64,000 bases of DNA, taken from positions 1 to 64,000 of IMG/VR virus record IMGVR_UViG_3300047586_000066; one strand, given 5' to 3'. Every line of letters starts with the position of its first letter. Position 1 is the first letter of the stretch. Both the position numbers and the translations under genes were made by a program. The notes below the pieces were generated by a model. That model ran no database searches. It was not told the DNA's origin and saw nothing but the letters and a program-made list of their open reading frames with translations. Source of the stretch: a virus. Shown here in pieces: positions 6,234 through 23,555 of this stretch.

Positions 6234-6310
6234 TGGTGTCCCGTGCGGGATTTGAACCCGCGATCCCCGGAGTGAAATTCCGATATCCTTGGCCACTAGA
6301 CGAACGGGAC
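6234..6310 (-). tRNA. tRNA-Glu (UUC)
   Basis: Complete cloverleaf on the minus strand: acceptor GTCCCGT paired with ACGGGAC, T-loop TTCAAAT, anticodon loop ATTTCAC giving UUC, discriminator A and an encoded CCA. The anticodon stem has one G-U pair. Confidence 0.93.
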
Positions 6311-6314
6311 AGAT

Positions 6315-6388
6315 TGGCAGGGGCGGAGAGGATCGAACTCCCGTGAGCCGGTCCAAAGCCGGCTGCCTGGCCACTTGGCTACGCCCCA
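6315..6388 (-). tRNA. tRNA-Gln (UUG)
   Basis: Cloverleaf with anticodon loop CTTTGGA (UUG), T-loop TTCGATC, discriminator G and encoded CCA. The first acceptor pair is a U-U mismatch, which resembles the weak first pair of many glutamine tRNAs. Confidence 0.88.
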
Positions 6389-6393
6389 ATAAT

Positions 6394-6543
6394 TCATGGT
6401 CTGATACTTTGCTCTCTGCCTCTTACGCGATCCAACATATCCCATCGACAGTTGTGGCACCATGGCAAGATCGGACTTTTATACATCCTCCAATACGTCG
6501 CAGGACCTCCGCATTCGAAACAGAGTTTTCCGATTAAATCCAA
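6394..6543 (-). CDS. Possible very small zinc protein inside the tRNA cluster
   Basis: A frame of 49 residues holds CFECGG and, 16 residues later, CHNC, a plausible zinc knuckle pair. There is no ATG and no clear ribosome site; a TTG at 6543 is the only usable start. It fills the gap between two tRNAs, so it may be a remnant. Low confidence. Confidence 0.25.
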   Translation of the reverse strand: MDLIGKLCFECGGPATYWRMYKSPILPWCHNCRWDMLDRVRGREQSIRP

Positions 6544-6547
6544 AGGT

Positions 6548-6620
6548 TGGGGTGAGGGCGGGACTTGAACCCGATCAACCGGGCCACAACCGATTGCTCT
6601 AACCATTGAGCTACCCCCAC
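6548..6620 (-). tRNA. tRNA-His (GUG)
   Basis: Anticodon loop TTGTGGC gives GUG. The acceptor GTGGGGG pairs with CCCTCAC through one wobble, discriminator C, then CCA. Discriminator C is the histidine identity mark. Confidence 0.88.
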
Positions 6621-6626
6621 TATAAA

Positions 6627-6716
6627 TGCCGGAAGAAGGGTTCGAACCTTCATGCTTGAGTTGTAATAAGCCTGGGATTTTAAGTCCCATGTGTCTGCCA
6701 CTTCCACCATTCCGGC
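6627..6716 (-). tRNA. tRNA-Leu (UAA)
   Basis: Class II tRNA of 90 bases: acceptor GCCGGAA with TTCCGGC, anticodon loop CTTAAAA (UAA), a long variable arm, T-loop TTCGAAC. Unlike its neighbours it has no encoded CCA; discriminator A is followed by TTT. Confidence 0.9.
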
Positions 6717-6723
6717 TTACACA

Positions 6724-6811
6724 TGCCGTGGAGGCATGAACCAGGGTTTCGATCCCTGCGGGGCCGCCCCCTATTAACCAGCGAACTCATGGACTCGTCG
6801 CCCTCCACGGC
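6724..6811 (-). ncRNA. tRNA-like structured RNA, not a standard tRNA
   Basis: Ends pair as a 10-bp helix GCCGTGGAGG/CCTCCACGGC. Inside, CATGAGTT pairs with GGTTCATG, a T-arm-like hairpin CAGGG-ATCGAAA-CCCTG is present, and CGC...GCG could enclose a D-loop-like GGTTA. There is no anticodon arm. A 10-base bulge follows the outer helix on one side only. It resembles a tRNA-like module capped on a stem, as in bacterial Y RNAs, but lacks the internal-loop sequence shared by the array at 9.4-10.5 kb. It could also be a degenerate tRNA. Confidence 0.5.
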
Positions 6812-6817
6812 AATCTT

Positions 6818-6893
6818 TGGCATGCCCGGCAGGATTCGAACCTGCGACCCTCTGTTTAGAAAACAGGTACTCTGTCCTCTGAGTTACGGGCAT
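6818..6893 (-). tRNA. tRNA-Arg (UCU)
   Basis: Acceptor ATGCCCG pairs perfectly with CGGGCAT, anticodon loop TTTCTAA gives UCU, T-loop TTCGAAT, discriminator G, encoded CCA. Confidence 0.92.
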
Positions 6894-6896
6894 GCA

Positions 6897-6973
6897 TGGT
6901 CGGGGAGACTGGATTCGAACCAGCGCATTTCACGGTCCCAGGCCGTGAGCCTTCCCAGCTTGGCCACTCCCCG
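6897..6973 (-). tRNA. tRNA-Pro (UGG)
   Basis: Acceptor CGGGGAG with CTCCCCG, anticodon loop CCTGGGA gives UGG, T-loop TTCGAAT, discriminator A, encoded CCA. Confidence 0.92.
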
Positions 6974-15765: not shown

Positions 15766-16009
15766 TGGTTTCCTCCAGTTTTACCTCTCGAATTATCGTT
15801 GCCTTCCTGATCAGCAATAGTGCCAGCTTATCAGCTTCATCTTCATCAAGAGAGAGAACGTTCACTGGATCGTTGAAGAGCATTACTATCTTCATGGAAT
15901 CCTTATCCACTCCCACAGCGAACCGGATCTTGTCCTCCTCCATCTTCCCGATAGCCTCCGGCACAGGCTTCGCCTCTGAACCCCACAACTTTGCTAACCA
16001 CTTTCTCAT
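15698..16009 (-). CDS. Hypothetical protein
   Basis: 103 residues, acidic centre (LSLDEDEADKLALLLIRKA) and a Q/G-rich tail. It overlaps the last 107 bases of the adenylosuccinate-synthetase-like gene, which is long for this operon and suggests one of the two ends or starts is misplaced. Confidence 0.5.
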   Translation of the reverse strand: MRKWLAKLWGSEAKPVPEAIGKMEEDKIRFAVGVDKDSMKIVMLFNDPVNVLSLDEDEADKLALLLIRKATIIREVKLEETSGQKSQGQNRESGVQKEVGEQG

Positions 16010-17225
16010 TTGATTTCGGCCCCCATGACGTGAACCCTACCTTGAAATTGAGATTGCTCTCGAGTGTGTCTACGACTGACTCCGTTCTCAAAAGCGACGG
16101 GCTGCATCTGTTCAAATAAGCGGGAGTGTTTTCCAATATTGTATATTCGAATCCGCTTCTGGTCACGTAAGCGTCACAGTAGATAACCCCCTCTGACTTC
16201 CCGATCCGATCCATGTGAGTCAGAGCCAGGAAGTCGACCCCGCCGATTGCTTGTAGAGAATATCTCAGCGCGGGAATGTCCAGGTAGCCTTTTCTTACAG
16301 ATCCTTGCCATTGACCGTTTACGTTGTGAAGCTCAGAGTGCTTTATATTACCCGTTTCGGCCACGAATGGCCCGGCGCCGTGCCGGGTGAAGTAGGTCCG
16401 GGTTACGCCGACTCGAAGGACCTGGGCATTCATTCCCGAAAGGAGCTTGGTTGCGTTTCCAAAACTACAGTTGCTCCAGGTGTTGTAAGGCGAACATCCA
16501 TACTTTTCATCCAACAGCATGCCCTGGGCGCCTTCGAACACCATCGCCTCTGGGAGTTCTGAAGCGATAACCTCACGCCAGGTTTTGATCTTCACCTTTG
16601 GCCAGAAGTCTTTGGTATAAAAGCGTAGTTCATCGACCGGATTGATGACCGCCATCTGTTTGTAGATCTCATCCGCTGTATGATCCATGCCCAAAAAAGG
16701 CATACACTTCGCCAGATTCTTTGCCCTGACGATATGCAACCGCTCACGCGCATAGGGACTTAGGATATCGCAAACAAGAAATGATTTTCCCTCTTCGTGA
16801 TCAGACTGGGCCTCTCCAATCCCCATGCCGCAAGATCCATGGCGATCTCCTCCCCGGGCAAGTTCCTTGATCCGATTCGCCATCCATTGCCAGGGAGTGA
16901 TGATGATCGCATTCGGGTCCACGTAGGGGTACGGGATACCCCAAGTGTCTTTTTCCTTTAGAACATCATGCTCGTTTATCATCGCGTAGGGTTCGATGAG
17001 CATGTGCTCGCTGAGGTAAGTCTGGCAGCCAGGAATAAAGCTGCCAGACCCGAATTGCGCGAAACAATGGTGCCGGCCGTCCTCTGTGATCACATTATGG
17101 CCAGCCTGGGGCCCGCCGTTGTAGCGGACCACCAGTTTCGCGCCATAGTGCCGGCAAAGAAAGTCGACCATCGTCCCTTTGCCTTCATCACCAAAAGCCA
17201 GGCCGGCAACCAAGATCGCTTTCAT
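15903..17225 (-). CDS. Adenylosuccinate-synthetase-like enzyme (PurA/PurZ superfamily)
   Basis: 440 residues, family length. The N-terminus GLAFGDEGKGT matches the PurA nucleotide loop and keeps the aspartate that characterised PurZ enzymes replace with serine. VRYNGGPQAGHNV, HGSCGMGIGE and EGAQGMLLD follow in order. The aspartate-binding loop is GQWQGSVRKGYLD rather than the bacterial GRRRRTGWLD, closer to archaeal PurA and PurZ. PurA joins IMP and aspartate; PurZ does the same with dGMP on the way to 2-aminoadenine DNA. Substrate here is undecided. The last 30 residues look like read-through into the next gene, since GPKSNEK would be a natural end. Confidence 0.82.
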   Translation of the reverse strand: MKAILVAGLAFGDEGKGTMVDFLCRHYGAKLVVRYNGGPQAGHNVITEDGRHHCFAQFGSGSFIPGCQTYLSEHMLIEPYAMINEHDVLKEKDTWGIPYPYVDPNAIIITPWQWMANRIKELARGGDRHGSCGMGIGEAQSDHEEGKSFLVCDILSPYARERLHIVRAKNLAKCMPFLGMDHTADEIYKQMAVINPVDELRFYTKDFWPKVKIKTWREVIASELPEAMVFEGAQGMLLDEKYGCSPYNTWSNCSFGNATKLLSGMNAQVLRVGVTRTYFTRHGAGPFVAETGNIKHSELHNVNGQWQGSVRKGYLDIPALRYSLQAIGGVDFLALTHMDRIGKSEGVIYCDAYVTRSGFEYTILENTPAYLNRCSPSLLRTESVVDTLESNLNFKVGFTSWGPKSNEKVVSKVVGFRGEACAGGYREDGGGQDPVRCGSG

Positions 17226-17629: not shown

Positions 17630-18670
17630 CTACAACCTGTCAACTCCACCGGCATTACCGGAAACCGAGGGGAGTCCGTCTGCCGAATAACGGCTGATCT
17701 CACCAGTGGTTTTACTCAAAGCAACCAATGATGAAGATATACCAGCGTCAGCGACACCATCAGATACGATGTCGTCCAAACCAACATATTCTTCACAAAT
17801 GGCTACCGCGGACACGATGCATTCGCAGATCTTCGCCGGGTCTTCCAGCTTGATCACGTTCTGTTGGCTGAGATGACGGACCCACCAGGTTTCGAGTTCC
17901 CGATCGGAATAGTGCGAGGTCATGTTCGGGATTATCATAAAAATGTGATATTTCTGTTTCGCTTCCTCGAGGATGGCCTCAAGACTGATTTCGTCTTGGA
18001 TGGTCTCGCCCAGGACGTCCAGGACCTTCTGTTTTGTAAGTTTCCTGTATGCGTGCTCGTCGCCGATCAGAAAGACGTAGCCTTTCCGGCCGCGCTTCTC
18101 CATGTGATCGTGGACCGTGTGCCGGGCCATGAAATAGAGCGCCAGCTCGTACTCTTCATCATAGGTCCCGCCGCCCATGCCGGTAAGCCACAGGTTCGTC
18201 AGGTTGTCATCGATCTCGATGCCTGACTCGAACTGCCCGATTTGGAATGTTCCACCGCTACCGGCGAAACTACGCATGGCATCGTAATCGTCGACAGCTC
18301 CGATCATGATTGCCGGGTAGCCTTCTCCCAGGTACTTCTTGCCGGACGCCTTGTCATCCAAGAAGCATCCCATTAGCTTCGAAAGCTCCTTCTGGATGAT
18401 CTTAGGAACTTGGTCCATGGATCCCGTGGTGTCACAGATCACGGCCACAGGAACGGACACCGGATGTTTGTCTGAATCTCGGGCCTCACGGATCTTCACG
18501 CCTTTAGGATCGAGTGAGGGATGGACTTTGGCTTCCGCCACTCCAGTTTTGATGTCGTGGCTATATTTGAAAGTTGCATCCTCTTTGCTGATTCCCATGG
18601 CAGAAGCCAGATTTACCCGGCTTATTGTTCGAGATGCGTAATCGACTTTTGAATATGAACTTCCACCCAT
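17630..18670 (-). CDS. von Willebrand A domain protein
   Basis: 346 residues with VWA from ~75 to 290. MIDAS is complete: D80-x-S/T82-x-S84 (CDTTGSM), GGGTYDEEY for the threonine, and a later acidic GDEHAY. The N-terminal 60 residues are soluble and the C-terminus is helical. It lies 12 bases downstream of a J-domain/kinase-fold gene, so the two are probably partners. It is unrelated in its N-terminus to the Ro60-like protein. Confidence 0.82.
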   Translation of the reverse strand: MGGSSYSKVDYASRTISRVNLASAMGISKEDATFKYSHDIKTGVAEAKVHPSLDPKGVKIREARDSDKHPVSVPVAVICDTTGSMDQVPKIIQKELSKLMGCFLDDKASGKKYLGEGYPAIMIGAVDDYDAMRSFAGSGGTFQIGQFESGIEIDDNLTNLWLTGMGGGTYDEEYELALYFMARHTVHDHMEKRGRKGYVFLIGDEHAYRKLTKQKVLDVLGETIQDEISLEAILEEAKQKYHIFMIIPNMTSHYSDRELETWWVRHLSQQNVIKLEDPAKICECIVSAVAICEEYVGLDDIVSDGVADAGISSSLVALSKTTGEISRYSADGLPSVSGNAGGVDRL

Positions 18671-18682
18671 TTGCTTTTCTCC

Positions 18683-19693
18683 TTATTTTGTGATTAGTTT
18701 TAATTCAACGAATTTCGCTGGACCAAATTCCTCTTTGGCAAGAGTGATCCAACGGTCCTGAACTCCCCAGGCGTCATGCGGCCGCGAGGCCGGTTGTCCT
18801 GCCATACACCATCTAATAAGATCCCTGAAACGCTTTGGCACTGAATTCGCAGCGAATTCCAGAGTCTTCATCAGCATGAATATGTCCGTGGCCGGCGACG
18901 GCAACCTCTTCAGCCTGACCTCCGGGGCATATAGATCTTGGTAGTCTTTAACCAGGGCCGGAATCCTGTCTCCGTTTCGGGACTTGCAGGAGTAGCACCA
19001 GTCGATCAGCTTCAATCCGTGGTCGGCCGGGTTGAAAAGAAGATGGTCCGGCAGGACCGCTCCGTGGATATATCCTTCTCGATGGACAAACCCAAGCACG
19101 CTCAGTGCCCGGTTCCCCATCCAAACTATGTGCCGGAAATCCTCTATCGATCCACCGGTTAGAACCATGATTTGCTTTAACGTGAAGTGTTGCTCTTCTC
19201 GGACGAAGACATTCACTCTACGGCCAGAGGCTTTCGTTCTCGCCTGAAGGTTCGGCAGATATTTGTGAAAATTGCCCATGGGTCCCGAGCCGCGTAGCAG
19301 CTTGAGAGCTTCCGCTTCACGGTCCATCAGATCGTTATCGATCGGCTTCCGGACTATTTTAAGCAGGAATGGAAGACCATCCGAATGTTCCGCTTCGTAG
19401 ATATCAGCGATATCCCCTTTTGCGAATGGGACCGTGACCACATACCCGCCGATTACAACCTGGACGGGCGCCGGACCTTTGGTCGCAAGGGAATACAGTT
19501 CATTCAATTTAGCAAAGGCTTTGGTCGCCCGGGCCTTGAAATCGTCCGGAACAACGTCTGGATGGACGATCCGGGCGTATCTTTTGAACATTTTCGCCGG
19601 ATCTTCCGAGGGCTCGATTAAATCCTTGTACTTGACGGCTGCTTCAATCTTTTTTAGATAGGTCTCCAGAGGTTCGTGTTTTGTCCTCTTCAC
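18683..19693 (-). CDS. J-domain fused to a protein-kinase-like fold
   Basis: 336 residues. Residues 1-70 are a J-domain with HPD at 44-46. The rest is kinase-like: lysine K112 in FLLKIV, E in the next helix, and a catalytic-loop region YIHGAVLPDHLLF at 209-220 followed by LKLIDW at 228-232. The usual HRD aspartate is replaced by alanine and DFG by IDW, so it may be a pseudokinase or use D216. Together with the adjacent VWA protein it looks like a two-gene cassette that could act on host chaperone or signalling proteins. Confidence 0.75.
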   Translation of the reverse strand: MKRTKHEPLETYLKKIEAAVKYKDLIEPSEDPAKMFKRYARIVHPDVVPDDFKARATKAFAKLNELYSLATKGPAPVQVVIGGYVVTVPFAKGDIADIYEAEHSDGLPFLLKIVRKPIDNDLMDREAEALKLLRGSGPMGNFHKYLPNLQARTKASGRRVNVFVREEQHFTLKQIMVLTGGSIEDFRHIVWMGNRALSVLGFVHREGYIHGAVLPDHLLFNPADHGLKLIDWCYSCKSRNGDRIPALVKDYQDLYAPEVRLKRLPSPATDIFMLMKTLEFAANSVPKRFRDLIRWCMAGQPASRPHDAWGVQDRWITLAKEEFGPAKFVELKLITK

Positions 19694-19975: not shown

Positions 19976-20170
19976 TCAAATCTCCTGATCCGGTTTCTTT
20001 TTTTGGAACCATTTGTAAATTGGTTCTACGACAGAATAGAGCCTGCCGCACCATTTCTCTATTTCTCTTTGACGCTCTTCAACCGTTCGAATCCGCTCAT
20101 CGAACGAGGCAAGCTGAGAGAGGAGACCTTCGATTCTTCGTTCTGTCGTCAGTTTGCTTTCTTCGCTCAT
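19976..20170 (-). CDS. Coiled-coil protein downstream of a CRISPR repeat
   Basis: 64 residues from ATG 20170 (MSEESKLTTERRIEGLLSQL), almost all one amphipathic helix with a tryptophan-rich end. No ribosome site is visible; the space upstream is taken by the solitary repeat. The longer frame that starts inside the repeat at a TTG is rejected. Confidence 0.5.
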   Translation of the reverse strand: MSEESKLTTERRIEGLLSQLASFDERIRTVEERQREIEKWCGRLYSVVEPIYKWFQKKKPDQEI

Positions 20171-20186
20171 GACTTTTGTGCCTGTC

Positions 20187-20217
20187 GTTTCAATCCACGC
20201 CCCGCGCAAGGGGCGAC
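20187..20217 (-). ncRNA. Solitary type I-C CRISPR repeat (RNA anti-CRISPR candidate)
   Basis: 31 bases on the minus strand with the form of a type I-C repeat: stem arms CGCCCC and GGGGCG around TTGCGC, then the 11-base handle TGGATTGAAAC. It lies alone in a 67-base gap between two genes; no second repeat or cas gene is near. Phage solitary repeat units of this kind are known to act as RNA anti-CRISPRs that trap Cas subunits. The 16 bases after the handle run into the next start codon. Confidence 0.78.
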
Positions 20218-20237
20218 ATTTCGAATATTGGTTTACT

Positions 20238-20720
20238 TTACTTCTTTCTGCGACGAATATAGCCTTTCATCTTCTCCAGGATTGACGGTTCCAGACTGTT
20301 CAAAGAATTCCTGATGCCCTGGACGTCCTCGTACACGGCCGGCAGCTTATCGAGCATCGGTTTTACGCGTTGATAAGCCATCAAGATGTTTTGGTACTCA
20401 GCCCGCATCTGCTCGAGGTCCAGCCTCATTTCCTCGACGTCGGACCTATAATTTTCCCCAAGGCTTTCGTTGATCTTCGTCTTCAGAGTCTCGACAAGAG
20501 TCTGCTGGGCGTTCGCTCTCTCATCCAGCCGGAAGATATGCTCCCAAGGGTGCTGAAAGCGGGACATTTCTGTTTCGTGGATGATCGGGTCATCATCGTC
20601 CGCGTTCTTTGCTAGGGCCTTAATCGTGAGGAGCTTTCCTCCGTCGATCATTCTCTTGACCGTTTCAACCCGCATGCCCATGAGATATGCTGCCTGTCTG
20701 ATGCTGAATACTCCGCTCAT
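20238..20720 (-). CDS. HTH (MerR/excisionase-like) protein with a long coiled coil
   Basis: 160 residues. The first ~40 (FSIRQAAYLMGMRVETVKRMIDGGKLLTIKA) form a winged HTH of the MerR/Xis kind. The remainder is a long helix rich in E, R and L with a basic end. Likely DNA-binding; it could also organise a complex. It overlaps its upstream neighbour at ATGA. Confidence 0.65.
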   Translation of the reverse strand: MSGVFSIRQAAYLMGMRVETVKRMIDGGKLLTIKALAKNADDDDPIIHETEMSRFQHPWEHIFRLDERANAQQTLVETLKTKINESLGENYRSDVEEMRLDLEQMRAEYQNILMAYQRVKPMLDKLPAVYEDVQGIRNSLNSLEPSILEKMKGYIRRRKK

Positions 20721-21043
20721 TTGTGAAGTTCCTCCATGATTTTTCCAATTGCCTTCGTCATTTCCTCTTCCCCCAGACCCATTGCCTTGACAATCAGATT
20801 GGCCTTTTCTTGGTCCACCATCTTATTCACGACCGTTGCTATAGCAGTCGCGCCGTTCCCGACTTCTATCGCCATGACCTGCATGATAATGGTGATTCCG
20901 GCCTTCCTGGCAAACGTGTCATAATCCACGAACATCTGCCGAGCCAGCTCCATCCTCTCGACGGCCGCTTGCTTGATCTCAGGAGGAATCGGACGGTTGC
21001 CTTTCAGTTGCGTGAAGTTCTCCGGGCTGATCTTATCGCTCAT
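20717..21043 (-). CDS. Small helical protein
   Basis: 108 residues, helical and methionine-rich (ITIIMQVMAIEVGNGATAIATVVNKMV). Coupled to the HTH gene downstream. Function unknown. Confidence 0.55.
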   Translation of the reverse strand: MSDKISPENFTQLKGNRPIPPEIKQAAVERMELARQMFVDYDTFARKAGITIIMQVMAIEVGNGATAIATVVNKMVDQEKANLIVKAMGLGEEEMTKAIGKIMEELHK

Positions 21044-22842: not shown

Positions 22843-23031
22843 CTACTCCTTTACCCGGCTGACCGGCATTGTGAAAATTAGCAATCCATGGTTGAACCAT
22901 TCAACCATAAGAAAGTCCCTGTACCACTTTGACTCTACATACTTGTCCTCTCGAAGCAGAGGGAATCCGCGCTCGTCGGAGCAAAAACGCCGGTATCCAA
23001 TAAATGGCAGCCAGGTTCCAAAGATCTTCAT
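22843..23031 (-). CDS. Small hypothetical protein
   Basis: 62 residues from ATG 23031, which overlaps the stop of the HD gene (ATGA). Aromatic-rich (WLPFIGYRRF, WFNHGLLIFTMPV). Function unknown. Confidence 0.55.
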   Translation of the reverse strand: MKIFGTWLPFIGYRRFCSDERGFPLLREDKYVESKWYRDFLMVEWFNHGLLIFTMPVSRVKE

Positions 23032-23555
23032 AACAGTTTTTGCTCCGCTTTCGCCACGATCGAGCTGGCTCGTTCCCATAATCCTGGGTCAGCCTTGAAC
23101 TTCAACACTTTCAGAAGAAGCCTCATCTCGGGAATATAGATCTTGGCGAATTTTGGATCCCGCTCCACGATCGATATCGTATTGGAGATGATGTCCGCGC
23201 ATTTGATTGTCTGGGCCCGGGCACTCGCGTTGGCCAGCCAACTCCGATCTTTAGCCTTCCGCTCAGCCCTATTCCCATCTTCGGGACGGGCAATATGGGT
23301 CAGCTCGACGACGAGACTGATAACATCGTGTTCTTCCAGCAACATCGTGAGATCTTCCCGTGTGAGGAGTGCATCTTCGATCGTGTCATGGAGCCAGGCG
23401 GCCGCGATCATTTCCGGATCCCGGATATCGTGCTCCTCGAGAATCGAGACCACTTCTTTACAATGATTCAAACAGGATTCACCGGTATATTTCCGTACCT
23501 GGCCGGAGTGAGCGAGAGCAGCGAAAAGCCTGGCTTTTTCAATTAAATTTTCCAT
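23028..23555 (-). CDS. HD-domain hydrolase of the SpoT/MESH1 type
   Basis: 175 residues, the size of a small alarmone hydrolase. ARLFAALAHSGQVRKYTGE, then NHCKEVV and WLHDTIEDALLT (residues ~54-65) give the HD pair and the ED that define the (p)ppGpp 3'-pyrophosphohydrolase fold. A later AQTIKCADIISN holds a further aspartate. It could remove alarmones made by the host or by toxic small alarmone synthetases. Less likely it acts on other nucleotides. Confidence 0.8.
   Translation of the reverse strand: MENLIEKARLFAALAHSGQVRKYTGESCLNHCKEVVSILEEHDIRDPEMIAAAWLHDTIEDALLTREDLTMLLEEHDVISLVVELTHIARPEDGNRAERKAKDRSWLANASARAQTIKCADIISNTISIVERDPKFAKIYIPEMRLLLKVLKFKADPGLWERASSIVAKAEQKLL

Follow-up and report, generated by a model that had tools for sequence, protein, structure and literature searches.

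What does a single CRISPR (clustered regularly interspaced short palindromic repeats) repeat do in a phage, in a gap between two genes and far from any array? The question arises in the first 64,000 nt (hereafter the window) of the 102,598-bp virus record IMGVR_UViG_3300047586_000066 from IMG/VR. A reading of the letters alone (the sequence-only reading) had proposed that the gap at 20171-20237 holds a solitary type I-C repeat acting as an RNA anti-CRISPR (Racr). We found that the minus strand at 20187-20217 reads GTCGCCCCTTGCGCGGGGCGTGGATTGAAAC, a complete 31-nt type I-C repeat, and we consider it likely that this unit acts as a Racr against the type I-C system of the host, a function that we infer from the following parts of the locus and their context (repeat position i corresponds to window base 20218-i).

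20171..20237, minus strand: 67-bp intergenic gap containing the repeat unit
20187..20217, minus strand: solitary type I-C CRISPR repeat GTCGCCCCTTGCGCGGGGCGTGGATTGAAAC, a solitary repeat unit (SRU) and Racr candidate by sequence and fold
20198..20215, minus strand: hairpin by fold, with a 6-bp stem CGCCCC/GGGGCG and the loop TTGCGC (UUGCGC in RNA)
20187..20197, minus strand: 11-nt 5' handle of the CRISPR RNA (crRNA), TGGATTGAAAC (tail given as UGGAUUGAAAC), by sequence, with the handle length taken from PMC5965380
20150..20186, minus strand: would-be pseudo-guide after cutting by Cas5d, predicted to extend into the start of the 64-aa gene

The unit has the layout of type I-C repeats, with two unpaired nucleotides, the hairpin and then the 11-nt handle. 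In the stem, CGCCCC (20215-20210) pairs with GGGGCG (20203-20198), as the sequence-only reading had described. The gap is flanked by a 160-aa gene and a 64-aa gene, both on the repeat's own strand, and the unit lies 17 bases from the start codon of the latter. A comparison with Rfam gave no family at gathering score for the repeat site.

The occurrence of the repeat is not a matter of chance. Arms plus handle are expected about 2e-9 times in a random sequence of 102.6 kb, and the repeat occurred in none of 100 dinucleotide shuffles. A scan of the window allowing up to 3 mismatches returned the repeat once, and in the whole record GTGGATTGAAAC is found once, inside the unit. Within 100 bp on each side there is no degenerate second repeat (flank scores of 45% and 48%, equal to shuffles), and the flanks show no similarity indicating a CRISPR leader or spacer remnant. 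Cas5d, Cas7 and Cas1 have no match in the 102,598-bp record, which bears out the earlier claim that neither an array nor a cas gene is near. We took the SRUFinder criteria for solitary repeat units from PMC10651486, namely no full or partial repeat within 100 bp and flanks less than 70% alike, an intergenic position, and at least 90% identity and at least 90% coverage to a known CRISPR repeat. By these criteria the unit is solitary, lies between two called genes, and is 93.8% identical over all 32 positions to array repeats from L041 and other genomes. Its best blastn-short score was 40.1 bits against array repeats seen at least 3 times here, a set that does not include the one-edit repeat of L117 described below; the SRUFinder cut-off of 41.1 bits is set against its authors' own curated repeat set.

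We asked whether the unit may instead function as a one-spacer mini-array, from which host Cas5d would make a guide out of the downstream sequence to target a rival phage. A cut after the hairpin would indeed yield an RNA made of handle and guide. However, the criterion for viral mini-arrays is repeats flanking a spacer with a viral target, and here a single repeat stands; the 100 bp on either side contain not even a degenerate copy. Among 2.9 million viral contigs none matches the first 22 bases of the would-be guide. Neither the phage nor its relatives offer the guide another site, and most of the guide is the start of the 64-aa gene. We therefore hold this function to be barely credible.

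To which repeats, then, does the unit belong? Repeats two edits away are common in genomes, and an array of one of them, in L041, adjoins Cas8c/Csd1, Cas7/Csd2, Cas4 and Cas1c, which fixes this repeat family as type I-C. The closest genomic repeat, GTCGCCCCTTGCGCAGGGGCG..., is one edit away and is one repeat within a heterogeneous array of a Nitrospirae assembly (L117). Its extra A closes a seventh pair, so that the earlier remark on a stem one base shorter than that of common I-C repeats was correct. A genome scan with a different loop starting with T returned 114 stretches, many of them long arrays, from assemblies labelled Nitrospirae, Deltaproteobacteria, Bacteroidales and others, spanning many phyla. 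The array comparison, by which the sequence-only reading proposed to check its claim and to name the host, thus came out in between, with the exact repeat absent from the genomes scanned and close repeats present, one of them in an array beside I-C cas genes; the repeat hints at a host with a type I-C system and does not name it.

Solitary copies of this kind were also found in other viruses. Scanning IMG/VR with the arms plus handle pattern gave 35 stretches of viral contigs, and the control scan with a reversed handle gave 0. After duplicates, copies in arrays and short contigs were left out, 23 non-redundant solitary copies remained, the window's copy included. Fourteen of the 23 are intergenic, against 2.4 expected for randomly chosen positions on these contigs (p ~6e-9); 12 of these 14 are co-directional with both neighbours and 1 is opposite to both. 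The genes were called with a simple codon-usage script, and these counts are approximate; an earlier, crude intergenic count based on open reading frames (ORFs) was dropped, as false ORFs had been called. The population result is in line with the survey of such units published earlier (PMC10651486). The shortest repeat of the set, GTCGCCCCGAAAGGGGCGTGGATTGAAAC (L009, 1920-1948), is I-C-like, has just 29 nt and the loop GAAA, and was called inside an ORF.

Using the vWA-like gene at 17630-18670 as a lead, we found a few related virus records. The closest relatives, L151 and L155, are 99.98-100% identical to each other over shared stretches and represent one lineage. A different solitary I-C-like repeat, GTCGCCTGCGTGGGCGTGGGCGTGGATTGAAAC, is found in this lineage (L151 12840-12872), in an intergenic gap flanked by genes of 70 and 76 aa, at another place than in the window phage. 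It shares with the window's repeat the two leading bases and the 11-nt handle, and has a different stem of eight pairs. That related phages have unlike mimics at separate loci, sharing the handle and differing in the stem, fits a repeated gain that tracks host repeats. A TTGACA box lies about 30 bases upstream of the L151 repeat, where the scan called no full promoter. In the other relatives no such repeat was found, and all of these records may be fragments. Other GATTGAAAC sites in the relatives were rejected, being without I-C arms and about as numerous as expected by chance. Profile searches with the vWA and kinase proteins added nothing to these few records except L164, which is similar to L165.

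These comparisons bear on the possibility that the unit is a relic without an inhibitory role, that is, a repeat picked up when the phage recombined with a host CRISPR array, or an array integration site. Its near-identity to host repeats would suit such an origin, but its flanks hold no leader, spacer or second repeat, the phage copies favour gaps and the orientation in which the neighbours are transcribed, and the different stem in the relative still keeps hairpin and handle. We consider a relic improbable.

Several results weigh against the unit being an RNA anti-CRISPR. None of the 84,980 genomes that we scanned contains the exact 31-mer, so that no host with a matching array is known, and the best matches of 1669 spacers from I-C-type arrays to the phage are at chance level. 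No relative keeps the window's unit at the same place. Folding of the whole 67-nt gap is no better than that of shuffles. Searches of PHROGs, Pfam and NCBIfam found no known anti-CRISPR family among the neighbour genes, and a sigma-70 promoter scan called no promoter adjoining the unit.

Because no promoter-like site was found beside it, the unit is probably transcribed within the minus-strand operon of the 160-aa gene, the repeat and the 64-aa gene. The sequence-only reading took the gap to serve the RNA; that it serves the RNA alone could not be demonstrated. In type I-C systems, which have no Cas6, the repeat is cut by Cas5d; an 11-nt 5' handle results, and one Cas5d copy remains on the hairpin (PMC5965380). 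Going by this known processing, Cas5d, the type I-C repeat nuclease, is predicted to bind the hairpin of the unit and to cut just 3' of it, between 20198 and 20197. The first product would be the hairpin with Cas5d still bound. The second would start with the 11-nt handle and be loaded by Cas5d and Cas7 as a crRNA, with phage operon sequence as its guide. Both products would divert Cas5d and Cas7 from real guides and leave less working Cascade, to the presumed benefit of the phage. The unit's own locus would be spared from cutting, because the pseudo-guide is bordered by the repeat, just as a spacer is in a genuine array.

The genes around the unit raise two further possibilities.

20238..20720, minus strand: upstream gene, 160 aa, a coiled coil with a weak N-terminal hint of an excisionase-like helix-turn-helix; not found at this place in the closest relative
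19976..20170, minus strand: downstream gene, 64 aa; its L151 homologue shares the start and directly follows the 108-aa homologue
20717..21043, minus strand: 108-aa gene; its L151 homologue overlaps the 64-aa homologue

For ribosome binding the 64-aa gene has just a weak ACAGG, some 10 bases before its ATG, whereas most other neighbours have clear sites of the GGAG/AGGAG type; the sequence-only reading, in which this gene had no ribosome site, was nearly right. As the unit lies so near the start codon (17 bases) and the ribosome site is weak, host Cas5d or the hairpin itself might control the 64-aa gene in cis, by cutting or masking the leader of its mRNA. Yet L151 keeps the 64-aa gene and its start codon without the repeat and has a gene overlap instead, which marks the repeat as an addition, and the repeat of the relative precedes a different gene. 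Pairing of the handle with its flanks is about the same as with shuffled flanks, here and in the other viral copies, and no extended structure hiding the handle was found. Control in cis is therefore very improbable in our view.

Since the 108-aa and 64-aa homologues overlap in L151, the window phage has the 160-aa gene and the repeat in addition, and judged from this arrangement these two together look like an added cassette. A search for relatives of the 160-aa gene found none. It is conceivable, though rather unlikely, that the two are a mobile anti-CRISPR cassette that was inserted between the 108-aa and 64-aa genes, and in which the 160-aa gene would encode a new anti-CRISPR protein (Acr) or its regulator, co-transcribed with an RNA decoy. 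If true, acrIC5-racrIC1 would be joined by a second operon that pairs an anti-CRISPR protein with an RNA, and the Acr family would be new. The 160-aa gene beside the repeat is a place to look for an anti-CRISPR protein.

Other features of the phage genome were observed along the way. An adenylosuccinate synthetase homologue (Pfam PF00709, PHROG 1211; window 15903-17225, minus strand) is present in all related phages examined, with its GDEGKG motif intact, and is perhaps an enzyme of the PurA/PurZ type that provides modified purines for the genome. Near it, in related phages too, are a vWA-like protein (PHROG 2971) and a kinase-like protein (PHROG 3043), here at 17630-19693 on the minus strand; the former also occurs in Mycobacterium, Rhizobium and Vibrio phages, with best matches of about 32% identity. 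A 175-aa protein (23028-23555, minus strand) resembles the N-terminal part of RelA/SpoT and could be an alarmone hydrolase of the phage. Six tRNA genes (Glu, Gln, His, Leu, Arg and Pro) are clustered at 6234-6973 on the minus strand, and a seventh (Ser) lies at 10447. At 4448-16873 of L159 (record 68448-80873), a single open frame on the minus strand encodes 4141 aa and takes up about 12% of the phage record.

How does the unit compare with known systems? Like viral CRISPR mini-arrays (PMC6858448, PMC11656645), it is a repeat carried by a virus without cas genes; those arrays hold one or two spacers, mostly directed at related viruses, whereas here there is one repeat and no target. RacrIF1, from a Thiocystis violascens prophage and directed at type I-F (PMC10651486), is likewise a single repeat mimic, whose processing by the host repeat nuclease gives a faulty Cas complex. 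In that system the nuclease is Cas6f and the trapped RNA has no 5' handle; in type I-C, Cas5d is both the nuclease and the proposed handle binder, so a product bearing the handle may be trapped too. The nearest counterpart is RacrIC1 from a Bifidobacterium pseudocatenulatum prophage, a phage I-C repeat that shares a bicistronic RNA with acrIC5 and inhibits type I-C by itself (PMC10651486). Both are solitary type I-C phage repeats in a gap just downstream of a gene, but RacrIC1 lies 11 nt downstream of acrIC5, while the upstream gene here encodes a 160-aa protein without an Acr match. For RacrIC1 the bicistronic RNA and the inhibition have been shown; the window's unit is known from its sequence, in a phage that is not a known prophage. 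Of the earlier proposal, the identity of the repeat and its place among Racr candidates are supported by sequence, structure, genomic context, the population control and the related phage, and its function is inferred. The unit is most likely a new Racr candidate of an already published kind, which includes the tested I-C case RacrIC1. It enlarges a recently described class of RNA inhibitors by a clear type I-C candidate, from a phage group of which few relatives are known, and brings as new details a different mimic in a related lineage and a cassette-like 160-aa gene.
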